DNA of 48,282 nt from Candidatus Omnitrophota bacterium (lineage in GTDB: Bacteria > Omnitrophota > Gorgyraeia > Aquiviventales > Aquiviventaceae): NCBI GenBank assembly GCA_016180575.1, contig JACPAY010000012.1, positions 1 through 48,282 on the forward strand, written 5' to 3'. The notes under the pieces were generated by a model, which was not told the DNA's origin, did not search any database, and saw nothing but the letters and a program-made list of their open reading frames with translations. This document shows, one piece after another, positions 12,019 to 26,148 of the stretch; positions within the stretch are counted from its first letter, which is position 1; every line of letters starts with the position of its first letter. The position numbers and the translations under genes are program-made.

Positions 12019-12096
12019 ATGAATTCAACGCAAGGGCTTGTCGCGATGGCCTCCCCACGGACGTCCTGTCGGTGGGGATTTTTTGCTGCCCGATGA
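12019..12096 (+). CDS. Possible leader peptide upstream of the PilZ operon
   Basis: A 25-codon frame (begins MNSTQGLVAMASPRT, ends RWGFFAAR) whose ATG coincides with the predicted transcription start and whose TGA overlaps the next gene's ATG as ATGA (12093-12096). It spans the terminator-like hairpin at 12052-12084. The geometry allows translational coupling or attenuation. There is no homology support, so it could be chance. Confidence 0.35.
   Translation: MNSTQGLVAMASPRTSCRWGFFAAR
12052..12084 (+). terminator. Rho-independent terminator-like hairpin
   Basis: TCCCCAC (12052-12058) pairs with GTGGGGA (12072-12078), and six T residues follow (12079-12084). It can end the tRNA-Leu transcript, or act as an attenuator between the promoter at 11983 and the operon starting at 12093. 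Confidence 0.65.
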
Positions 12097-12767
12097 AGCG
12101 CCGTTACCTCGTCCTCGCAACAGCCGGGGTGGCTGCGGCCGGCGTCATGGTCTGGGAAGACGCCGCGCGCCGGGCCGCCGAGCATCGGTACCATGCGGCG
12201 GTCGAGGACCGCCGGCAGCTGGAGCAGCGCGTGGGCGAGATGTTGGCGACCCATGACCAGCTGAAGGGCGACCTTGCGCGCGAGCAAGGCCGTTCGCAGG
12301 AGCTGTCCGACACGCTGGCGGCGGCGCGCGGGAAGCTGGATGAGATGACCGCCCGCCTCTCGGATGAGAACGGCAACGTCAGGAAGCTCCAGGCCCGCCT
12401 CGCCGCCATGCAGGGGCAGATGGACCGGCTGCAGGGGGAGCTGGCTCTGACGCTGCAGGAGCGCCAGCAGGCCGGGGGAACGGAGGGGCCCGGCCCGGTT
12501 CAGCTGGAGCGCATCCTGGTGAGCGGCGATGCCTCCTCGGGTCTTCACGGCCGCGTCCTGTCCGTCTATCAGGAGTGGGACTTCGTGGTCATCAACCTCG
12601 GCTGGGATGTCGTCCGGGTGGGGGACACCGTGTCCATCGTCCGCGGCGGGCAGCTGCTGGCCAAGGCGCGTGTCGAGCGGGTCCAGGAGGATCTGTGCGC
12701 CGCCACGGTTCTGCCGGAATGGGATGCGGCGGCGGTCAACGTCAATGACGCGGTCCAGCTTCTCTAG
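12093..12767 (+). CDS. Membrane-anchored coiled-coil protein with C-terminal beta domain
   Basis: 224 residues. A short basic start and hydrophobic helix (YLVLATAGVAAAGVMVW, residues 4-20) form a signal anchor. Residues about 35-130 are a long Leu/Glu/Arg heptad coiled coil (LEQRVGEMLATHDQLKGDL). The last 80 residues form a compact beta-rich domain (GRVLSVYQEWDFVVINLGW ... VGDTVSIVRGG), reminiscent of FlgT-C-like or other OB folds. It is probably periplasmic. It is first in an operon of three genes that overlap each other, and shares its coiled-coil design with the next two. No named family recognised. Confidence 0.7.
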   Translation: MKRRYLVLATAGVAAAGVMVWEDAARRAAEHRYHAAVEDRRQLEQRVGEMLATHDQLKGDLAREQGRSQELSDTLAAARGKLDEMTARLSDENGNVRKLQARLAAMQGQMDRLQGELALTLQERQQAGGTEGPGPVQLERILVSGDASSGLHGRVLSVYQEWDFVVINLGWDVVRVGDTVSIVRGGQLLAKARVERVQEDLCAATVLPEWDAAAVNVNDAVQLL

Positions 12768-14817
12768 CATCAGGCTCCTCTTCTTGCTGGCGGCCGCGGC
12801 GGCATGGGCGCTGCCGCGCGGAGGCTTCGCCGCGGAGACGAGCGACCCGGTCACGATGACGAAGACCATCGTGGTCATCGCGGTCGATTCCAAGGAGCCG
12901 CTGGACGTCCGCTCCGACGCCAAGGAGCGCCCGCCGGTCATCACGCTGACGTTTCCCAAGCGGCGGGTCATGGGCTCGCTCCCCGAGCGGTCGTCATTCG
13001 CCAAGGGCGTCGTCCGGACCATCGCCGCGCGCTACGACCGTTCGCTCAGACCGAGGAAGTCGGCGAAGCGGTTCCTCCACGCCCTCCAGATCGGCCTGAG
13101 CGCGCCGTACCCCTCCCAGGTCCGGTCGGAGCCCGGGCGCGTCGTGATCGAGATCAGCCATCCGCACTCCATCGACAGCGCGTCGATGGAGGTGGGGCTG
13201 CGCGGCGGGACGATCGCCGGCGCGATCGGGCAGAGCGCGATGACCCAGCGGTTCCGCGCCATGCAGGATGCGCTGGCGCAGGCGACGGCGGCCCCGACCG
13301 CCTGGGCGATCTCCTTCACCGCCGACGGCCCGCAGCCGCCCGCCGGCGGCGTGACGGCGCGCAACGAGGCCGCAGCGATCCCCCAATCGACAGCCACCCC
13401 CGAATTGAAGCCAGCGGCCGGCGCCGGGCCGCTCGCCTCGGCCTCCGGTCCTGCAGGTCCCTCGCGATCAGCCGGGCGGGGGCCGCTCGTTGGGACCGCC
13501 ATCCTCATCGTGGCCGGGGTGTCGCTTGGCCTCTGGTGGCTCGCCCGCGGCCGTCCCCTCCGCCTCTCGCCGGGCGCCGCGCCTGCTCCGTCCAATGCCC
13601 CGCGGCTGCCGTCGGCGGCCCTGCTGGTCGACCAGCTGATCTGGCGGGCGTTCGAGCGGCGGGGCTACCAGCTCGTGCAGGAGACGGAGCTCGCCCAGCC
13701 GTCGCCGGCAACGCTGCGGGTGATGGCCAAGGACGGCGCCAAGGCGGCATTGCTGTTCGCCGGGCAAGGGACCTTCTTTGAGAAGCAGACGGTCGAGCGG
13801 TTCGTCCGGACCATGGAGGGCGCCGAGGCCCAGCAGGGCTTCCTCGCCGCGGCAGGGTCATTCACCGTGCCCGCGCAGCGCCTGGCTGAGCAGCACCAGA
13901 TCACGCTGATCGGCCGCGAGCAGCTGACCGAGCTGCTGAGCCTGGGGGCGGGCAGCGAGTACTTCGCGAAACAGATCGAGCAGAGCCACGCGCGCCTGGA
14001 GGAGGCCAAGGAGACGCTTCGCCAGTACGCCGGGGAGCTGGAGACCCTGCGCCGCCAGCGCAACGAAGCCAGCTGGTACCTCGGGGAAGAGCGCGCGCAG
14101 GCCGCCAAGCTCGAGGCTCAGCTGAACGACGTGGGCCAGCAGATCCGCCGGCATGAGGCGGAGCTGCGCCAGTGGGAGCAGGAGGCCGCGACCTTGCGCC
14201 GCCGGTGGGAAGAGAGCCAGTGGTATCTCGGAGAATCCGTGGCGCGCGTGCGCCACCTGGAGACCCAGCTCGGGGCGCTCCAGGAGGCGGCGAAGCGCGC
14301 CGAGACCGCCGAGCAGGAGCGGCAGGCGCTGCAGGGGGATCTCGCCAAGGAGCGGGCGCGGAGCGAGGCCGTGGAGGAACAGCTGGGATCCCTGCAGCGG
14401 AACCTCGAGGAGTCGGCGAAACGGGAACTGGCGCTGCAGATGGCCTTGGAGCAGCTCAAGCAGGAGATGCGCGTGCTGCAGACGTCCGGGGACCGCCGGG
14501 TCCAGGCGCGGGCAAACATCCCCCAGGCGCTCGTTGAGCTGTTCAACGGCCGGAACAGCCCGGTCTTCTCGGGCGCGCCGCGCGATGTGAGCAGCATCGG
14601 GCTGGGGCTTGAAACCGAGCAGGAGCTGCCTGCCGGCTCCCCGCTTCGGGTGCGGCTGACGCTTCCGGGCCGCGACCCCATCGAGTCGAAGGGACGGATC
14701 GTCTGGCAGCAGGCGTCTGGGCGCCCGCGCCGCTACCGAAGCGGCTGCCGGCTGCTGCGCGTGCCCGCGGCCACGCGGGCGCTCATCGGGAAGGCGCTGC
14801 AGGAGATCCCGACCTAA
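12745..14817 (+). CDS. AMIN - TM - restriction-endonuclease-fold - coiled coil - PilZ fusion protein
   Basis: 690 residues from ATG 12745 (MTRSSFSSIRLLFLLAAAAA, signal peptide), overlapping the preceding gene by 23 nt. In order: an AMIN-like domain, residues 35-160 (TIVVIAVDSKEPLDV); a Pro/Ala linker; a membrane span, 248-270 (LVGTAILIVAGVSLGLWWLA); an Mrr-like nuclease-fold domain, 285-400 (LLVDQLIWRAFERRGYQLVQ); a coiled coil, about 411-582; and a PilZ domain, 585-686, with RVQAR (RxxxR) and DVSSIG (DxSxxG). So an envelope-binding outer half is tied to a cytoplasmic c-di-GMP receptor. The usual nuclease Lys after the beta strand is not apparent (LLFAGQG), so that domain is probably non-catalytic. 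Domain calls are by motif reading only. Confidence 0.7.
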   Translation: MTRSSFSSIRLLFLLAAAAAWALPRGGFAAETSDPVTMTKTIVVIAVDSKEPLDVRSDAKERPPVITLTFPKRRVMGSLPERSSFAKGVVRTIAARYDRSLRPRKSAKRFLHALQIGLSAPYPSQVRSEPGRVVIEISHPHSIDSASMEVGLRGGTIAGAIGQSAMTQRFRAMQDALAQATAAPTAWAISFTADGPQPPAGGVTARNEAAAIPQSTATPELKPAAGAGPLASASGPAGPSRSAGRGPLVGTAILIVAGVSLGLWWLARGRPLRLSPGAAPAPSNAPRLPSAALLVDQLIWRAFERRGYQLVQETELAQPSPATLRVMAKDGAKAALLFAGQGTFFEKQTVERFVRTMEGAEAQQGFLAAAGSFTVPAQRLAEQHQITLIGREQLTELLSLGAGSEYFAKQIEQSHARLEEAKETLRQYAGELETLRRQRNEASWYLGEERAQAAKLEAQLNDVGQQIRRHEAELRQWEQEAATLRRRWEESQWYLGESVARVRHLETQLGALQEAAKRAETAEQERQALQGDLAKERARSEAVEEQLGSLQRNLEESAKRELALQMALEQLKQEMRVLQTSGDRRVQARANIPQALVELFNGRNSPVFSGAPRDVSSIGLGLETEQELPAGSPLRVRLTLPGRDPIESKGRIVWQQASGRPRRYRSGCRLLRVPAATRALIGKALQEIPT

Positions 14818-15788
14818 TGCAGGAACGCCGAGCCGCCATTCGAATCTCCCGCCGATGCCGCACGCAGTACTGCTCCTCCGAAGACCTCGTGCCTCGGGAC
14901 GGCAAGATGACGTCTCTGAGCGAGCAGGGAATCGGCTTGCTGGTGCAGGAGGCCCATCGGGCCGGCGAGCTGTTGAGCGTGGGGTTTTCGCTCCCGGGAG
15001 AGCGGGAAGCGCTCACCGCGACGGGGGTGGTCCGGTGGTCCGGGCCGCCTCGGGACGGCCGCTGGCACCCGGTCGGGTTGAACTGGCTGCAGCTTGAGGA
15101 GTCGGTCCGGAACCGCCTCCAGCAGTTCCTCGATGGCGCCGCGGCCGAGACCGCCCCGCCCCCCGCCGCGGCGAAGCGGCGGCGCAGCCTGGCCGTGCCG
15201 GCCGCCGCAGCGCTCCTGGCCCTCGGCGCGGTCCTCATTGGGTGGTGGACGCTGTCGGTGCGCCGGGAGAACCGCCAGCTGCAGGGCGCGGTTGAGCTGC
15301 GCGACCAGGTCATCGACGAGCTGGGGACGCAGGGCACCCAGCTCGTCGCGGAGCTGGGGGAGGCCAGGGCGCATCTCATGGAGACCGCCGCCGAAGTGGC
15401 TCGGCTGGACCAGCAGGCCCAGGCGTTCGGCACGGCGATGGAGCGCATGGACGGCGAGCTGGCCGCCTTTCAGGCGTCGTACGCGGCGGTGCGGGAAGAG
15501 CGCGATGCCCTCATCAAGCAGGTGCTGGATCTTGAGCAGGCGAGGACCTCGATGCTGAAGCGGTTCTCATCCGTCGATGAGCTGCGGCTGGCGATCCGGG
15601 AGGCGATCGATGCCCGGAAACAGGCCCGGCAGGCGGTGTGGTTCTCGCGGCTCGCCGCCAGGCGGACGGCCTTCGACCAGCAGCTCGCGGACGGCAACCG
15701 CGGCTACCTCATCCGCGACGGCCAGCCGACGCTCGGCGCCGGCGGCGCGATGTCAATCCGCGTCCACGAGCCCGAGCCGCTCCCCTGA
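14817..15788 (+). CDS. PilZ - TM - coiled-coil protein
   Basis: 323 residues; ATG 14817 overlaps the upstream stop as TAATG. N-terminal PilZ domain (residues 3-100): RAAIR supplies RxxxR, and SLSEQG occupies the DxSxxG position with Ser replacing the acidic residue. One membrane span follows (VPAAAALLALGAVLIGWWTL, about 125-145), then a periplasmic coiled coil (about 148-250) and a short tail ending VHEPEPLP. It mirrors the neighbouring fusion with the order reversed (PilZ at the N-terminus), suggesting the two assemble through their coils. c-di-GMP responsiveness is inferred from the motifs. Confidence 0.75.
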   Translation: MQERRAAIRISRRCRTQYCSSEDLVPRDGKMTSLSEQGIGLLVQEAHRAGELLSVGFSLPGEREALTATGVVRWSGPPRDGRWHPVGLNWLQLEESVRNRLQQFLDGAAAETAPPPAAAKRRRSLAVPAAAALLALGAVLIGWWTLSVRRENRQLQGAVELRDQVIDELGTQGTQLVAELGEARAHLMETAAEVARLDQQAQAFGTAMERMDGELAAFQASYAAVREERDALIKQVLDLEQARTSMLKRFSSVDELRLAIREAIDARKQARQAVWFSRLAARRTAFDQQLADGNRGYLIRDGQPTLGAGGAMSIRVHEPEPLP

Positions 15789-15809: not shown

Positions 15810-16754
15810 TCAGGCCCCCGTCCGCCGCTCCTTCACGTAGAGGCTCCGGTCGAACTGCTTGGCATAGGCCTTCAGCTCCGCCCCGATCTTGGCGATCTGC
15901 CCGGGGTGCGTCACCTTGCCCCCCTCGTTCGTCACCACCGCGATGGAGATCGAGAGCGGCGGGACCTTCACCTGCTGCCCCTTGCGGTCCGTGTGCAGCA
16001 GGTGGCCGCGGGCGCGGTCCTCCGCATCGTAGAGCTGCGGGACCATCGCGTCGAACGCCTGGATGACGGCCTCGCAGAGCGCATCGACGCGGTCCCTGGT
16101 CGTGACCGCGATGAAATCGTCCCCGCCGATGTGGCCGACGAAATCGCCGGGGGCGCCCTGCGCCTTCACCGCCTTGAGGAGGATCTCCGCCGTCCGCTGG
16201 ATGACCTCATCCCCGCGCTTGAACCCGTAGTGGTCGTTGAACGCCTTGAAGCGGTCGAGGTCGAGATAGCAGACGGCGTACGCGCCGCCTGAGGCGATGC
16301 GCCGCTCCAGCTCCCGCTGGATGGAGACGTTGCCCGGCAGCCGGGTCAGCGGGTTGGCCTCAAGGTCCGTGATGGTGCGCCGCAGCACCATCCGCACGCG
16401 CGCGAGCAGCTCCGCCGGCTCGAACGGTTTGATGAGATAGTCGTCGGCGCCGGCATCGATCCCATCCACTTTGTCCTGCAGCTCGCTCTTCCCGGTGAGC
16501 ATGATGATGGGCACATGGCGCAGCAGGGTGTCCTGCTTGAGCTGGCGGCACACCTCCGGGCCCGTCACCTGCGGCATCATGTAGTCCAGGATGAGCAGGT
16601 CCGGCGGGCGGCGGCGGATGGCGTCGAGCGCCGCAGCGCCGTCCTCGGCTTCCGTGACGGAAAACCCGGCCGGCTCGAGCACGGACCGGAGGATGTCCCG
16701 GAGATCCGGGTCATCATCCGCCACGAGGATCTGTTTCACTGGCTGCTGCGGCAT
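15810..16754 (-). CDS. Response regulator with degenerate diguanylate cyclase output (REC-GGDDF)
   Basis: 314 residues: a receiver domain (1-120) with acidic pocket DDD, phosphoacceptor Asp in LLILDYMMP, Thr in IIMLTGKSE and Lys in YLIKPFEPAE; then a GGDEF-family domain (about 130-310) with YLDLDRFKAFND and the active-site loop IGGDDF. The loop is GGDDF and no RxxD inhibitory site precedes it (APGD), so activity could be altered or lost. It starts 3 nt after the kinase gene, its probable phosphodonor. This is PleD-like architecture with one receiver. Confidence 0.9.
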   Translation of the reverse strand: MPQQPVKQILVADDDPDLRDILRSVLEPAGFSVTEAEDGAAALDAIRRRPPDLLILDYMMPQVTGPEVCRQLKQDTLLRHVPIIMLTGKSELQDKVDGIDAGADDYLIKPFEPAELLARVRMVLRRTITDLEANPLTRLPGNVSIQRELERRIASGGAYAVCYLDLDRFKAFNDHYGFKRGDEVIQRTAEILLKAVKAQGAPGDFVGHIGGDDFIAVTTRDRVDALCEAVIQAFDAMVPQLYDAEDRARGHLLHTDRKGQQVKVPPLSISIAVVTNEGGKVTHPGQIAKIGAELKAYAKQFDRSLYVKERRTGA

Positions 16755-16757
16755 CAG

Positions 16758-18296
16758 TTACTCTGCCGGCAGGGTGACGGAGAACGTGCTGCCCTTGCCC
16801 CGCTCGGACGCCACTGCGACGCGGCCCTGGTGCGCTTCCACGATGCGCTTGACGAGGGCCAGGCCGAGGCCCGTCCCCCGCACCTGCTGGTTGATGGGGT
16901 CGTTGGCGCGGTAGAACTCCTGGAACAGCTTCTCCAGATCCTCCGGGCCGATGCCGCAGCCGGTGTCGCTCACCGTCGCGAGGATCGACGGGCCCTCCCG
17001 CTTCAGCCCCATGCGGATGGCGCCTTTCTCCGGCGTGTACTTGATGGCGTTGGACAGCAGGTTGATGAAGACCCGCGGCAGGTGCTGCGGGTCGCCCACC
17101 AGCGCCGTGACCCCGTCGCGGTCGACGGTGTACCGGATGCGCTTGGCCTGCAGCTGCGGCTGGATGACGTCGTGGACGGCGCTCAGGAACTCCTCGATCG
17201 GGATCGCGCGCCGCTCCATCGTGACGCGCCCGGACTCGATGCGGGCGATGTCGAGGAGGTTGGTGATGAGCTGGGTCAGCAGGTCGGCGTGCTTCTCGAT
17301 CTTGGCGATGCGCTCGCCCTGGAGCTTGGCCAGCGCGCCGAACTGGCCGCTGCAAAGCAGCGACGCATAGCCCTTGATGGCGGCCAGCGGCGTGCGCAGC
17401 TCGTGCGAGACGGAGGAGACGAAGTCGCTTTTGGCCTTGTTCAGCCGGACCAGCTCCGCATTCGCCTCGGCCAGCTCCCGGGTCCGCTCCTGCACCTTGC
17501 GCTCCAGCTCCCGGCGCGACGCCCACGTCTCTTCGTACAGCGCGGAGTTCTCCACGGCGATCGCCAAGCGGTTGGTCAGGATCGCGACGAGCTCCTCGTC
17601 GGCCTTCGAGGTGGCCGCGCCGGCGCTCGCGCGGCCCAAGACGAGGAAGCCCGCGGGTCCGGAATGGGGCAGGATGCCCGCGATGACGGCGCCCGGGACC
17701 TGGAGCAGGTCCAGCAGCCGCTGCTGCGCCGGGTCGAGCGACGCGATGGCCCGCAGGATCTGGGGGGCGGGGTTCGTCAAGACACGCTTCAGCAGCCCGC
17801 TGGCCTGCAGGTGCGCCTTGAGCGCCTCGGCGTCAGTCTCGCTCACGCCGATGAGGGAGCACCACTGGATGGCGTCCAGGGAACCGCACATCCCGATGGC
17901 GCCCTTGGAGAAGCCGAAATTGGAGACCACCGCAGCGTCCAGCTTGCTGTACACCTCGTCGGGACGGAGGCTCACTTCAAGCTGCCGCCCAAGCTGGTGC
18001 AGCGACATCAGGGACGCCAGCCGCCGGTCCAGCTCCTCCTGGGTGCGATGGAGCTCCAGGTCCGTGCGGATGATCAGCTTGGTCTGCTGGTCGAGCTGGT
18101 CGTAGGCGGCCTGCAGCCGGCGAAGCTCCCCGAGCTTCCGCCGCGCCGCCTCCGCCTTGAAGGCAAGATACCCGAGCACCCCGAGCAGCGTCAGGGTCAT
18201 GCCGGCGGCGTGAGGCGGCAAGTTGGCGCCCAACGCCAGCAGCAGCACCGCCAGCACGCCGATCGTGAACACGATGTAGATCAGATATGGCGCCAT
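16758..18296 (-). CDS. Membrane sensor histidine kinase (GAF-HisKA-HATPase)
   Basis: 512 residues. Two hydrophobic helices at the N-terminus (LIYIVFTIGVLAVLLLALGA and AAGMTLTLLGVLGYLAF) are followed by a coiled region, a GAF-like domain (about 90-235), then HisKA with SVSHELRTPLAAIKGY (phospho-His). The HATPase_c domain has N-box LLSNAIKYTPE, G1 DTGCGIG and G2 GTGLGLALVK. All catalytic motifs look intact. The start is 2 nt beyond the FIST gene's end and its stop is 3 nt before the response regulator, so the three form one operon. Confidence 0.92.
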   Translation of the reverse strand: MAPYLIYIVFTIGVLAVLLLALGANLPPHAAGMTLTLLGVLGYLAFKAEAARRKLGELRRLQAAYDQLDQQTKLIIRTDLELHRTQEELDRRLASLMSLHQLGRQLEVSLRPDEVYSKLDAAVVSNFGFSKGAIGMCGSLDAIQWCSLIGVSETDAEALKAHLQASGLLKRVLTNPAPQILRAIASLDPAQQRLLDLLQVPGAVIAGILPHSGPAGFLVLGRASAGAATSKADEELVAILTNRLAIAVENSALYEETWASRRELERKVQERTRELAEANAELVRLNKAKSDFVSSVSHELRTPLAAIKGYASLLCSGQFGALAKLQGERIAKIEKHADLLTQLITNLLDIARIESGRVTMERRAIPIEEFLSAVHDVIQPQLQAKRIRYTVDRDGVTALVGDPQHLPRVFINLLSNAIKYTPEKGAIRMGLKREGPSILATVSDTGCGIGPEDLEKLFQEFYRANDPINQQVRGTGLGLALVKRIVEAHQGRVAVASERGKGSTFSVTLPAE

Positions 18297-18298
18297 CT

Positions 18299-19513
18299 TT
18301 AGACCCCAATCGCCGCCACCAGCACCGAGCCGGTCTGGGTGGCGATCGGCTGCCCCGTCAGCCCATCAGCGGACAGGCCCGCGTCGAACGGCGCCTGCTC
18401 CGCGTAGGTGTAGCAGCCGGCGAGAGGGACCGACGGCCCCACGGCGCCTCGGATGCGCTCGATCTCCATCGCCGCGTGATGCGGGCCCAGGAGCGCCCGG
18501 CGGACCGCCGAGTCGAACACGAGGACGCAGGCGATCCGGTTCAGCGGCCGGATGGCCTGCCGCGCCGCACGCTGAGCCGCCTCCAGCGCCAGCTCCCGGC
18601 TGCCGATCATGAGCTGCAGCCAGGCGCCTTCCCGCATCTCGCCGTTGCAGGCGAGGCTGCCGTCGTCCCCGAACGACACGACGTTTCGGAGCAGCCATTG
18701 GTTCGCCGACTCGCCCTGAATCCCGAGGGGATAGGCGATCCCCTGCCGGTTCAGCCCCTCCTCCCGCATCCGCCGGACGACGTCCACCCCGAAGTACTCT
18801 TCGTACACGGAGGCGGCGGGTTTGCGGTCGAGCGTCAGGAGGACGTTGGCGCTGGCGCGGGTGATGCGGCGCGGTTTGCTGATGGGGGCGAAGCCGTGCT
18901 CCAGGCCCACGCCGAGCCTCGCCGAGCCGCCGAGCAGCACCCCCACCACCGAGCGGCTGGCGACCTCCCCATGGCAGTACTGATAGGTTTCGGCAAACCG
19001 CAGGTCATCGCCCGCCATCCCGCCGGCGATCAGGAAGCTCGTGCCGAGCACTTCCTGCAGCCCCCGGACCACCTCCGCGTAGCCGGTGACCATCCCATCC
19101 CCCAACAGCAGCAGCCCCGCCCGCGGACTTCCCCGAAACGCCTGCAGCGCGGTGAACGCGGCCCGCTGTCCGGCCACGCGGGGCGCCCGATCCGCGTCCC
19201 GTCCCATCCCGACCCCGCAGGCGAGCCCGTCGATGGCCAACAGGACCACCACGCAGCTATGGCTGGCCGGTCCCTCGGCGGTGATCTCGCCGGCCGTACT
19301 TTCGCCGGCGAGCGGGAGCTCGCCCAGCACCGACCGGACCCCCTGGAGCAGCGCGCGCTGGTCGAACCAAGACGAGCCGAAGACCAGCGCCAGCTGCGGG
19401 GGGGCGAATGGCAAGAGCCGCTCCAAGGCCCGGGAGGCCGCTTCCGTGCCGGCCTGCGCCGCCTGCCGGTTTGCGCTCCATCCGACGGTTGCCGCAACCA
19501 CTTGAGCCGCCAT
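18299..19513 (-). CDS. FIST domain signal-transduction protein
   Basis: 404 residues matching FIST_N (residues about 20-220, with the typical LPLAGESTAGEI and GGMAGDD) plus FIST_C (about 225-385, ending in PLAGCYTYAEQAPFD). FIST proteins are predicted to sense small molecules, perhaps amino acids, and commonly sit beside two-component or GGDEF genes, as here. The upstream TATACT (19525-19520, minus strand) lies 6 nt before ATG 19513, suggesting a leaderless operon message. No membrane segment is seen; it is presumably cytoplasmic, feeding the adjacent kinase. Confidence 0.9.
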   Translation of the reverse strand: MAAQVVAATVGWSANRQAAQAGTEAASRALERLLPFAPPQLALVFGSSWFDQRALLQGVRSVLGELPLAGESTAGEITAEGPASHSCVVVLLAIDGLACGVGMGRDADRAPRVAGQRAAFTALQAFRGSPRAGLLLLGDGMVTGYAEVVRGLQEVLGTSFLIAGGMAGDDLRFAETYQYCHGEVASRSVVGVLLGGSARLGVGLEHGFAPISKPRRITRASANVLLTLDRKPAASVYEEYFGVDVVRRMREEGLNRQGIAYPLGIQGESANQWLLRNVVSFGDDGSLACNGEMREGAWLQLMIGSRELALEAAQRAARQAIRPLNRIACVLVFDSAVRRALLGPHHAAMEIERIRGAVGPSVPLAGCYTYAEQAPFDAGLSADGLTGQPIATQTGSVLVAAIGV

Positions 19514-19600: not shown

Positions 19601-21010
19601 TCAGCGACTCGGGCGCAGCGCGTGGTGCTCTTGCGAGTGGCTTTGCCGCTTGTAGGCATACAGCGAGCGGTCGGCGGCGTCCAGCACCGCCTGGGGGCTG
19701 TCCGTGGGCGGCTGCGCGCGGCTCATGCCCACGCTGAGGCTGACGGCGGGCGCCGCCATGTCGGGGACGCGGATGCGCAGCTGCCGCAGCTTCTCGGCGA
19801 CCAGCGCCGCCTGGTCGGGGCCGGTTTCCGGAAGGGCGATGACGAACTCATCCCCGCCGAGGCGAGCGAGGATGTCGGATTGCCGCAGGAGCGCCTGGAG
19901 TTCCCTGGCCACTTGCTGCAGGACCAGGTCGCCGGCGAGATGCCCCAGCCGGTCGTTCACCTGCTTGAAGCCGTTGACGTCCACCATGAGGCACGCCAGC
20001 GGCCGGCGGTACCGCTTGGCCCGGTCGCACTCCCACGCCATCCGGTTCAGGAAGAACCGGCGGTTGTAGAGCCCGGTCAGCTCATCCGTGATGGCCATCT
20101 GCCGCAGCCGCTGTGAGGCGCGCCGCAGGGCCGCGGTCCGCCGGGCGACCGCCCGCTGCAGGATCCACGTCCGGGCCGCCAGGATCCAAACGACGGTTGT
20201 GATGCCAAGGCCCGCGATGGCGCTCAAGGCCAGGAGCAGGACGTTGAGCCACGAGAGCGTCTTGACGACGCCCGTCTTGCCGGGCTGCATCTGGATGGTC
20301 CACCGCGCCGCGTCCACCCTCAGCGAATGCTCCACGACGAGCGCGCGGGCGCCCTCCCCGTCGGCCTGCCAGTCGCCGGACCGATGGAGGAGCGTTTTGC
20401 CGTCGAGCACCTGCACCGGGTAGTGCTGCGGCAGGCCGGAGGAGAAGAAATCGTTCAGGAGCGGCTTCACCTCGAAGACGCCGAAGACCGCCCCCTGCCG
20501 GATGGGACCGGCCTGCGACGGCTCGAACATGATGAGCAGCGGGTCAGCCGGGGACGGGGAGACGCTGAACGTCGAGGGCACGCGCCAGACGCCGCGCAGG
20601 CGCGTGCGCTGGACGATGGCGCTGTTCACCTCGTTGAGCGCCTGAGCGGACAGGCGCGGGGCCGCCCACCAGACGGGCGGCTGGCCGCGCTGGACCAGGC
20701 CCGCGCCGATGAGGTGGCGGGTGTGCTGCACCGCGCTGGCCCCCATGGCACTCAGGGCCGCCGGCGCGAGGTCCGGCTGCCGCTTCAGGGTGTCCCGGAG
20801 GAAGGTGAGCGTCCCGCGGCGGCTCTCGAGCCGCCGCACGAGCTCGTTGCCGGTCTGGACGATGACGGTCCGGGTGTCCTGCTGGACCGCCTGGCGGCCG
20901 TGCCAACGGGTGACGCCCACCAGCCCAAGCAGCACGACGCTTGTCAGGAGCGTCGCGACAGCCGCCAGGAGGATCCGGCGGTGCTTCCGCCTGGTGCCGA
21001 AGCGTCCCAT
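19601..21010 (-). CDS. Membrane diguanylate cyclase with periplasmic sensor domain
   Basis: 469 residues. Membrane helix at about 13-33 (LLAAVATLLTSVVLLGLVGV), a periplasmic region of about 215 residues possibly of CHASE type, and a second helix (about 258-280, LNVLLLALSAIAGLGITTVVWI). A cytoplasmic GGDEF domain (about 310-460) has DELTGLYNRRFF, the catalytic loop LGGDEF and the product-inhibition site RQSD five residues before it. Both sites are intact, so an active, feedback-regulated cyclase is likely. It follows the FIST operon on the same strand with an 87-nt gap. The ligand is unknown. Confidence 0.88.
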   Translation of the reverse strand: MGRFGTRRKHRRILLAAVATLLTSVVLLGLVGVTRWHGRQAVQQDTRTVIVQTGNELVRRLESRRGTLTFLRDTLKRQPDLAPAALSAMGASAVQHTRHLIGAGLVQRGQPPVWWAAPRLSAQALNEVNSAIVQRTRLRGVWRVPSTFSVSPSPADPLLIMFEPSQAGPIRQGAVFGVFEVKPLLNDFFSSGLPQHYPVQVLDGKTLLHRSGDWQADGEGARALVVEHSLRVDAARWTIQMQPGKTGVVKTLSWLNVLLLALSAIAGLGITTVVWILAARTWILQRAVARRTAALRRASQRLRQMAITDELTGLYNRRFFLNRMAWECDRAKRYRRPLACLMVDVNGFKQVNDRLGHLAGDLVLQQVARELQALLRQSDILARLGGDEFVIALPETGPDQAALVAEKLRQLRIRVPDMAAPAVSLSVGMSRAQPPTDSPQAVLDAADRSLYAYKRQSHSQEHHALRPSR

Positions 21011-23587: not shown

Positions 23588-23776
23588 CTAGAACCGGTTT
23601 CATAAATCCGCGCGAACCGCGTTGCGCGCGCCAGCCGGCCAGCTGCAAGGAACGACGACGAAGCTGTACCCCCTGTGGTACTGCGAGGAGGAGTGACGCC
23701 GCAGCGGGCCGGCTGCCGCCGCAACCCCTCGGCATCTCATGGGCTGGGCCGATCGGCGTCGGCCCAACCGGTTCTA
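23588..23776. repeat. Intergenic element bounded by inverted TAGAACCGGTT arms
   Basis: TAGAACCGGTT (23589-23599) and AACCGGTTCTA (23766-23776) bound about 165 bp of GC-rich, hairpin-rich sequence. It contains GCGCGAACCGCGTTGCGCGC and CCGATCGGCGTCGG. The right arm includes the stop codon of the TonB receptor. The arms share ACCGGTTCTA with the family C palindrome at 35728. No credible gene. Confidence 0.5.
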
Positions 23777-25798
23777 CCACTCGATGCGCACCCCTCCGAA
23801 GAAGCCGATCGGCGGCATCGGGGCTTCGCCCGCGCCGAGCAGGGTGACGCTGTTGCTGGACTGGTACGTGACGTACTCCTCGTTGGTGAGGTTCTCGATG
23901 CGGCAGTAGATGTTCGCGCGGGGGCCCTGCTCGCCGAGGAGCCCCTGCGGCACGTCGTACTGCGCCACGAGGTTCACCACCCCGTAGTTGTCGGCGGCCG
24001 GGAGGATGTTGCCGAAGTCGTTGATGCGCACGAGATCGTGCACGAGGCGCCAATCCAGGTCAATCCAGAGGCCCTGCGCCGGCGACACGCCGAGGCTCGT
24101 ATGCAGGGTGTGCTCAGGGCTCCCCGGGATGGTGTTCGCGTTGAACTGGCCCTTGCGGAACTCGGCGTCCACGAAGGTGTACGCCGCCGAGGCCCGCGCC
24201 CGGCCCTCGAGCGGCTGGGCCCTGGCGCTCAGCTCGCAGCCGAACCGGCGGGTGTCGTAGTTCTGGTTCGTGAAGGCGGCGTTGTTGTAGAGGATTTCAT
24301 CCTTGATCCGGATGTAGAAGCCGGTGGCGCTCGCCTCGACCCCATGCGCGGCGCCCTTGACGCCGAGCTCATAGGTATCCGCCTGCTGGGGCTGCAGGTC
24401 GGCGTTGCTGCGGGCGATGGTGCTGACCCGCGAGGAGAAATCGTCCACGTTCGGCGCCTTGAACGGGCGGCTGAACGACCCGAAGACGCGCAGCCGCTCC
24501 GGCACCAGGACGACGGCGGCGCCGAGCTTGGGGCTCCAGCCTTCAAAGCGCAGCGTCCCGTTGTAGTCAGGAAAACTCAGGGACGCGGCGTAGCGCGACT
24601 TGTCAAACCGCAGCCCGCCGACCAGCGTGAGGCGTTCCCCGAACGTCAGCGTCTCTTCGAGGAAGAGCCCGTAGCCGTCCCGGGTGGTCTCGCTGTCCGC
24701 TCCGGCCCCCGGGTCGCCGGTCGTGGCCTTGTCCTCGCCCAGCTCGATGCCGCTGACGAGCAGATGGCTCGCGGCATCGCCCACCCACTCGTGGTTGCTG
24801 CGCAGGCTCACCCCGCGCGAGGGGGTGACCGTGAACGAGTTGAAGTTGATGGAGTCCTCCGAGGTCTGGACCCGGCGGGACCAGAAGCCGGACAGCACCC
24901 CGGAGAGGCCGTCGACCGGACCCAGCGTGGTGTCGAGGGAGACCTGGTCCGTCTCGGTCGTGTTGAACCCGTGGAACGCGTTCGTCTGCTCCGTCCGCTG
25001 CTCCACCTGCGCCAGCGTCAACAGGCCGGGGAACGCGGTGGTGTCGTCGCTGTGCGCGACGTGGAGGTCGGTGACGAGGCCCGGCAGCCAGTCGACGCCC
25101 GTGTTGGAGCGGATCGTGGTGTTGCGCGACCAGCTGGACTCGCGCTCGTTGTCAACCAGCCTGCGGGAGTAGTGCGCGCCGTAGCGCACCCGCTCCACGC
25201 GCCCCTGGACGCTGGTGAAATACCGCTCCCAGCCATGGGAGCCGGCCTCGGCGCCGGCCTCCGAGCGGATGGGGCGCTCCCCGCCCTCCTTGGTGATGAT
25301 GTTGATGACGCCGGCGAGCGCCCCCTCGCCGTAGACCGATCCGCCGCCGCCCCGGATGACCTCGATGCGCTCGATCTGCTCCACGGGGATGGACTGCCAG
25401 TGGACCTCGTCCCCCGTGAGGCGGTTCTGGCGGATGCCGTCAATCAGGACGAGGACGTTCGTGCGGGAGCTGTTGACGATCCCCCGCAGGTTCAGCGTGG
25501 CGTTGGACGCCAGCCCGTACCCCTGCTGGTCGGAGAACGTCACGCCTTCCAGGGGAAGGAGCAGCTGCTGCACGGTCAGCGCCTTCGAGCGGCGGATCTC
25601 CTCAGCCGTGATCACGCTGACGTTGGCCGGCAGGCGCTCGGCGTCGAGCGATTGGCGGGGCATCCGGCGGGGGGAGAGGAGCCCGCCGCCTTCCGTGGAG
25701 GGGGAGGCGGTCCAGCCGGGAGCGGGGAGCCCGCCGATCACCAGCCCGACGGCGCAGACGACCGCCCCCGCATTCCGCTTCCGCATCTTCCGCGACAT
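23774..25798 (-). CDS. btuB: TonB-dependent receptor, BtuB-like
   Basis: An outer-membrane beta-barrel that imports a scarce ligand using TonB energy. 674 residues from MSRKMRKRNAGAV (GAGG Shine-Dalgarno, 5 nt upstream), with a signal peptide to about residue 30. The plug domain (about 50-165) shows VSVITAEEIRRSKALTVQQL, NLRGI and IERIEVIRGGGGSVYGEGAL. A barrel of about 500 residues follows, ending in the C-terminal aromatic signature GVRIEW. The cobalamin riboswitch immediately upstream identifies the ligand as cobalamin or a related corrinoid. Co-transcribed with two inner-membrane proteins. Confidence 0.9.
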   Translation of the reverse strand: MSRKMRKRNAGAVVCAVGLVIGGLPAPGWTASPSTEGGGLLSPRRMPRQSLDAERLPANVSVITAEEIRRSKALTVQQLLLPLEGVTFSDQQGYGLASNATLNLRGIVNSSRTNVLVLIDGIRQNRLTGDEVHWQSIPVEQIERIEVIRGGGGSVYGEGALAGVINIITKEGGERPIRSEAGAEAGSHGWERYFTSVQGRVERVRYGAHYSRRLVDNERESSWSRNTTIRSNTGVDWLPGLVTDLHVAHSDDTTAFPGLLTLAQVEQRTEQTNAFHGFNTTETDQVSLDTTLGPVDGLSGVLSGFWSRRVQTSEDSINFNSFTVTPSRGVSLRSNHEWVGDAASHLLVSGIELGEDKATTGDPGAGADSETTRDGYGLFLEETLTFGERLTLVGGLRFDKSRYAASLSFPDYNGTLRFEGWSPKLGAAVVLVPERLRVFGSFSRPFKAPNVDDFSSRVSTIARSNADLQPQQADTYELGVKGAAHGVEASATGFYIRIKDEILYNNAAFTNQNYDTRRFGCELSARAQPLEGRARASAAYTFVDAEFRKGQFNANTIPGSPEHTLHTSLGVSPAQGLWIDLDWRLVHDLVRINDFGNILPAADNYGVVNLVAQYDVPQGLLGEQGPRANIYCRIENLTNEEYVTYQSSNSVTLLGAGEAPMPPIGFFGGVRIEW

Positions 25799-25880: not shown

Positions 25881-25949
25881 AAGTCCCGGTTGCCTTCACC
25901 CTGGCCTGGCTCCACGAGCTGCAGTGAAGTCCCCGCCTAGCGGGGCTGT

Positions 25950-26115
25950 TCGAGGGGCAGGTCTTCTGGCTCCCCCACCTCCCTTGCGCCTTCCCACCCC
26001 ATCATGCTGGCTGGGGCAGTGGCCCTTGCAAGGGCAACGACCTGGGGGTTACAGCGGCGGGTCCGCGCCTGAGTTGCACAGGCTTCCCTTGACCCTTCGA
26101 ACGTCCAATTGTGGA
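25950..26115 (-). ncRNA. Cobalamin riboswitch (B12 element)
   Basis: Minus-strand features in order: GGGAAGCCTGTGCAA, GCCGCTGTAACCCCC (the CCGCnnCTGT-type core), CACTGCCCC, and the B12 box AGCCAGAAGACCTGCC (25971-25956). It is followed by hairpin CCCCGC-TAG-GCGGGG and the terminator at 25852-25880. It controls btuB and probably the two genes beyond. A weak promoter TTGACA-16-TGTAGG (26148-26121) lies upstream. Confidence 0.93.
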
Positions 26116-26120
26116 GTCAC

Positions 26121-26148
26121 CCTACACCCAGCGGGGGCAGGGTGTCAA
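26121..26148 (-). promoter_or_regulatory. Candidate promoter for the riboswitch transcript
   Basis: TTGACA (26148-26143) with a 16-nt spacer to TGTAGG (26126-26121) on the minus strand. The -10 is poor, but the position fits the riboswitch 5' end. Confidence 0.4.

Follow-up and report, generated by a model that had tools for sequence, protein, structure and literature searches.

Inside-out relays for cyclic di-GMP (c-di-GMP) are exemplified by LapD, which is built from a degenerate GGDEF-EAL module, a HAMP domain and a PAS-like periplasmic domain. The elongasome protein MreC has a layout of membrane helix, coiled coil and beta domain. The PilZ motif for c-di-GMP comprises RxxxR and [DN]xSxxG (PMC10333796), and the AMIN domain of PilQ binds septal and polar peptidoglycan (PMC10653833). 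Few cases are documented in which a second messenger controls peptidoglycan-binding proteins on the other side of the inner membrane, and one polypeptide carrying both ends would offer a direct route that can be tested. The Omnitrophota are mostly ultra-small and probably host-associated cells, for which attachment and remodelling of the wall are important. The stretch of DNA analysed here (48,282 nucleotides, hereafter the window) comes from a Candidatus Omnitrophota genome (1.31 Mb, 84.6% complete) most of whose named relatives are MAGs of this phylum from groundwater. It encodes three proteins, A, B and C, whose domain order the preliminary description could assign to no named system, and literature text searches likewise returned no report of the combination: AMIN domain and PilZ co-occurred in a reference list only, and Omnitrophota together with c-di-GMP gave nothing.

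Layout and conservation of the locus

Three overlapping genes on the same strand follow ilvD and a tRNA-Leu gene (Table 1), and their open reading frames occupy exactly the interval 12093-15788 in which they had been placed. The overlap is 23 bp between A and B (ATG start of B at 12745) and 1 bp between B and C (TAATG). Apart from the signal peptide of B, each protein has one predicted membrane helix (TM), and all three have a long coiled coil, as had been proposed; the window's A has a weak helix (KD 1.46), most of its orthologues a clear one. The convergent operon anticipated as FIST-kinase-GGDDF is resolved by Pfam into REC-GGDEF, HisKA kinase and FIST genes plus a TM-GGDEF gene. Elsewhere in the window, a cobalamin riboswitch (89 bits, 25939-26139, minus strand) lies upstream of a gene (23774-25798) whose 674-aa product resembles outer-membrane receptors.

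Table 1. Features of the A-B-C locus and its convergent neighbours, in window positions; topology as predicted
Feature	Positions	Strand	Description or basis
Gene A	12093..12767	+	224 aa; membrane helix at the N-terminus, coiled coil in the periplasm, beta-barrel resembling FlgT_C at the C-terminus
FlgT_C-like six-stranded barrel of A	12546..12764	+	Pfam weak, AlphaFold, Foldseek
Gene B	12745..14817	+	690 aa; in order, signal peptide, AMIN-like domain, membrane helix, Mrr fold without catalytic residues, coiled coil with WYLGE, PilZ
AMIN-like periplasmic beta domain of B, residues 40-142	12862..13170	+	AlphaFold all-beta, pLDDT mostly 82-93
Single TM helix of B, residues 248-266	13486..13542	+	Hydropathy 2.09; modelled helix
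Mrr-like PD-(D/E)XK fold of B, catalytic D and QxK absent	13600..13974	+	Pfam Mrr_cat, Foldseek
WYLGE motif of B, first copy (W444)	14074..14088	+	Near-invariant
WYLGE motif of B, second copy (W493), 49 residues on	14221..14235	+	
PilZ of B, with RVQAR and DVSSIG	14488..14781	+	Pfam E=6.5e-9
Gene C	14817..15788	+	323 aa; N-terminal PilZ, TM, coiled coil, conserved tail
PilZ of C, SLSEQG instead of [DN]xSxxG	14817..15134	+	Pfam E=1.7e-8
REC-GGDEF (GGDDF) response regulator, convergent; candidate local c-di-GMP source	15810..16754	-	Pfam
HisKA histidine kinase, convergent	16758..18296	-	Pfam
FIST sensor protein, convergent	18299..19513	-	Pfam
Membrane TM-GGDEF protein, canonical GGDEF, convergent	19601..21010	-	Pfam E=8e-41

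Within the window's GTDB family (f1), B is present in 22 of the 27 genomes searched. Since B is conserved along its length (32-82% identity to relatives) and the order A-B-C persists among relatives of 32-85% identity, the trio is not a product of chance. A lies upstream of B in all 20 testable relatives and C downstream in 17 of 19, being absent in G002 and G017 and partially matched in G006. The conservation on which the preliminary description had staked its reading is thereby upheld; of the two findings that would have spoken against it, neither dispersal of the trio in relatives nor lack of an AMIN or nuclease fold was encountered. A diguanylate cyclase (GGDEF) gene is convergent with the trio in 19/19 testable relatives, and REC-GGDEF in 17/19. 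Because the block is generally syntenic, housekeeping neighbours such as ilvD and a rhodanese gene included, adjacency to the c-di-GMP operon is weak evidence when taken alone; in G006 the link to ilvD is broken, yet the trio and TM-GGDEF remain together. In G019, B and C seem to be fused (L075, 1018 aa), but this was dismissed as a frameshift inside the PilZ domain of B, the remainder of which lies in another frame. The full A-B-C locus also occurs in a MAG labelled Planctomycetales (L134, SBAZ01000020.1) that sits in the Omnitrophota family; the label seems wrong.

Domains of the three proteins

The first part of B is modelled by AlphaFold as an all-beta domain, a membrane helix and then an alpha-beta-beta-beta-alpha-beta domain. 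Assignment of the beta domain to AMIN, made in the preliminary description, is supported by homologues that pass the Pfam cut-off; the model of B is confidently all-beta, and the match of B's own sequence is weak. Pfam AMIN (PF11741) is marginal in the B proteins of f1 (two of 19 orthologues reach E<=1, the lower value being 0.11 and below the cut-off; E = 0.016 in G008). It scores 22.5 bits in the homologue from family f19, above the cut-off of 20.5 for the whole protein, and 20.4 and 19.5 bits in whole proteins from f24 and f20, which rise above the cut-off when searched as genome segments. The Foldseek list for this part of B is dominated by the Mrr portion, with AMIN structures absent among the top matches, and a PDB sequence search with the N-terminus of B yielded chance POU matches only.

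Behind the membrane helix, Mrr_cat is detected above the Pfam cut-off in the window copy (E=7e-8) and in all 19 orthologues, and Foldseek aligns the domain with MspJI (4f0p), AF1548 (1y88), RPB5 and EcoT38I. The proposed Mrr-like nuclease is thus present as a fold, but its catalytic residues are lost: the catalytic D and QxK are replaced in the B orthologues (L183, for comparison, has GGID..IQAK), and their absence rules out B as an active nuclease. In the coiled coil that follows, W[YF]LGE occurs two or three times, its W, L and G never varying; among 36 intervals between copies, 24 measure 49 residues and 27 are multiples of seven, counts that derive from orthologues and hence not from independent observations. 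Small soluble proteins of 82-138 aa, which match no specific Pfam family, are likewise built almost entirely from W[YF]LGE coiled-coil repeats in heptad phase, two or three per protein; such repeat proteins occur elsewhere in the class (L106:487-735, L105:1492-1821 and, on the minus strand, L114:1498-1914), one small member adjoins PilZ near GGDEF genes, and a Rokubacteriota protein joins a WYLGE repeat to PilZ. The C-terminal PilZ of B is canonical, as had been read from its motifs, with 36.5 bits against a curated cut-off of 22.5; RxxxR and [DN]xSxxG are both canonical in 18 of 19 orthologues, L079 being missed by the regular expression solely because of the search window used.

C carries PilZ at its other end, in agreement with the earlier reading and with a Pfam match above the cut-off, but lacks the canonical D/N in this species. 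RAAIR is present, the D/N position is lost (SLSEQG) in the window copy and in G001, and most other C orthologues have it; the motif is degenerate in this genus. The tail of C matches a phylum-wide stand-alone TM-coiled-coil protein (L083:8356-8931 on contig C13 of the same genome; L085-L089, L095), whose conserved neighbours are a membrane protein with an MPSTHA motif, a TPR-like gene and an accA-like gene.

A is modelled as a helix (residues 2-127) followed by a six-stranded barrel (pLDDT 81), for which Foldseek returns FlgT (3w1e) and the LPHT ring (8z5n). Pfam FlgT_C remains below its cut-off, with matches in 5/19 members (best E=0.0018) and 26.1 bits against 27 in a paralogue from the same genome; a PDB sequence search with A gave coiled-coil matches. 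The A profile matches 205 of 237 genomes of the phylum. Seven paralogues (L173:7927-8670, on contig C20 of the same genome, L174, L175, L178, L179, L181 and L280) adjoin aroA, most of them together with mreB-mreC-mreD-mrdA-rodA, the neighbours having been named from sequence by eye. The phylum-wide paralogue is a candidate for an unrecognised elongasome-associated protein. Identity of A with MreC was ruled out, there being neither a sequence match nor a top Foldseek match.

An older core in other families

Beyond f1, searches with the B profile hit AMIN-TM-PilZ proteins in f10, f19, f20 and f24, encoded immediately downstream of an A-like gene, and in the f19 homologue both AMIN and PilZ exceed their Pfam cut-offs. 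The survey of these proteins covers the Omnitrophota, as the GTDB scan was based on WYLGE patterns only. The form in these families is signal peptide-AMIN-TM-PilZ, devoid of Mrr, and its pairing with A is an older core than the full trio; the tree of A gave no decision on a single origin of all A-B pairs. In f20 the halves of B are encoded as separate proteins, AMIN-TM-PilZ-CBM and Mrr-WYLGE. The AMIN-TM-PilZ proteins of f10, f20 and f24 end in AMPK1_CBM/CBM48 (AMPK-type glycogen-binding) domains (examples L169, L170 and L180). In six genomes of one f19 genus, A and AMIN-TM-PilZ are followed by a divergent polysaccharide deacetylase (Polysacc_deac_2) and a LysM-Amidase_2 lipoprotein, a murein amidase; the Pfam domains were tested in G193, the other five genomes being recognised by gene order and similar protein starts. 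No peptidoglycan enzyme adjoins the trio in f1.

Possible signal route, alternatives and known systems

We tentatively favour, at a probability somewhat short of even, that the three proteins assemble in the inner membrane into a complex relaying c-di-GMP from the cytoplasm to the cell wall. The preference arises from the combination of a PilZ predicted to be cytoplasmic and an AMIN domain predicted to be periplasmic in one polypeptide, together with the f19 deacetylase and LysM-amidase operon, which supports an inside-out, peptidoglycan-directed reading from one genus of another family. According to this proposal, c-di-GMP would bind the PilZ of B, and probably also that of C in many orthologues; the signal would travel via the cytoplasmic WYLGE coiled coil and the catalytically dead Mrr, the latter serving as a protein- or DNA-binding fold, and would cross the single membrane helix of B to AMIN, which might then, in concert with the FlgT_C-like barrel of A and the coiled coils that A and C would place in the periplasm, hold or release peptidoglycan-acting machinery. 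Of the interpretation offered in the preliminary description, domain order, predicted topology and gene conservation are supported (Pfam, AlphaFold/Foldseek, 21 relatives, AMIN above the cut-off in homologues); it is to be corrected for the loss of the catalytic residues in Mrr and of the canonical D/N in the PilZ of C in this species. The tests run did not link B to a secretin in particular.

A positioning role for pili or secretins, in which the AMIN domain of B would mark septal or polar peptidoglycan while PilZ in the cytoplasm governs how a type IV or Tad pilus is assembled or works there, draws on the localisation of pili by PilQ AMIN domains in Myxococcus (PMC10653833) and on the presence of T4aP in nearly all Velamenicoccia (PMC10066038). 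The window's genome has five secretins with no Pfam AMIN match in any of its proteins, and a PilT-like gene shares a contig with an A paralogue. We nonetheless hold this unlikely, as the f1 loci inspected show no recognisable pilus gene close to the trio and the f19 operon has a murein amidase instead. Reversal of the signal, such that AMIN and A would sense the state of the wall and alter the PilZ/coiled-coil assembly toward cytoplasmic partners, with c-di-GMP only setting the threshold, would fit the fact that the portion of B predicted to be cytoplasmic is both its biggest and its best conserved (residues of WYLGE and Mrr are invariant) and the occurrence of Mrr-WYLGE in f20 as a protein without AMIN; yet B has no fused output enzyme and its Mrr is inactive, and outside-in sensing appears rather unlikely to us. 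The Mrr/MspJI/RPB5-like fold and the long coiled coil could also suggest a c-di-GMP-gated tether between chromosome and envelope, with the dead Mrr bound to DNA and the coiled coil and TM-AMIN anchored to the wall. DNA binding is hypothetical here, however, inactive nuclease folds can also make protein contacts, and the AMIN-TM-PilZ homologues of other families are devoid of Mrr; we give the tether very little weight.

In its widest form, the cytoplasm-to-wall relay might represent a lineage-specific class of transmembrane c-di-GMP receptor in the Omnitrophota, A plus AMIN-TM-PilZ, related to an elongasome-linked scaffold and controlling peptidoglycan remodelling from the cytoplasm, to which one family would have added an inactive nuclease fold, a coiled coil with WYLGE motifs in heptad phase and a further protein with PilZ. 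We regard this generalisation as speculative and, on balance, doubtful. Like relays of the LapD type, B would couple a cytoplasmic c-di-GMP receptor (putative in B) across the inner membrane to a periplasmic domain, but the degenerate GGDEF-EAL, HAMP and PAS-like domains are all missing from A, B and C as judged by Pfam. With PilZ receptors such as YcgR and the effector-PilZ fusions of BcsA type, B shares the PilZ fold and the RxxxR...[DN]xSxxG motif, except that its PilZ is tethered through coiled coil and membrane helix to an AMIN-like domain predicted to be periplasmic and has no flagellar or synthase module. AmiC and PilQ have an N-terminal periplasmic AMIN following a signal peptide, as is predicted for B, and differ in carrying an amidase or a secretin where B has a membrane helix and cytoplasmic domains. 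FlgT, the Vibrio flagellar ring protein, has a C-terminal barrel that resembles the barrel of A by Foldseek and weakly by Pfam FlgT_C, whereas A is a TM coiled-coil protein encoded outside any flagellar cluster. The layout of A is finally that of MreC, and its paralogue adjoins mreBCD.
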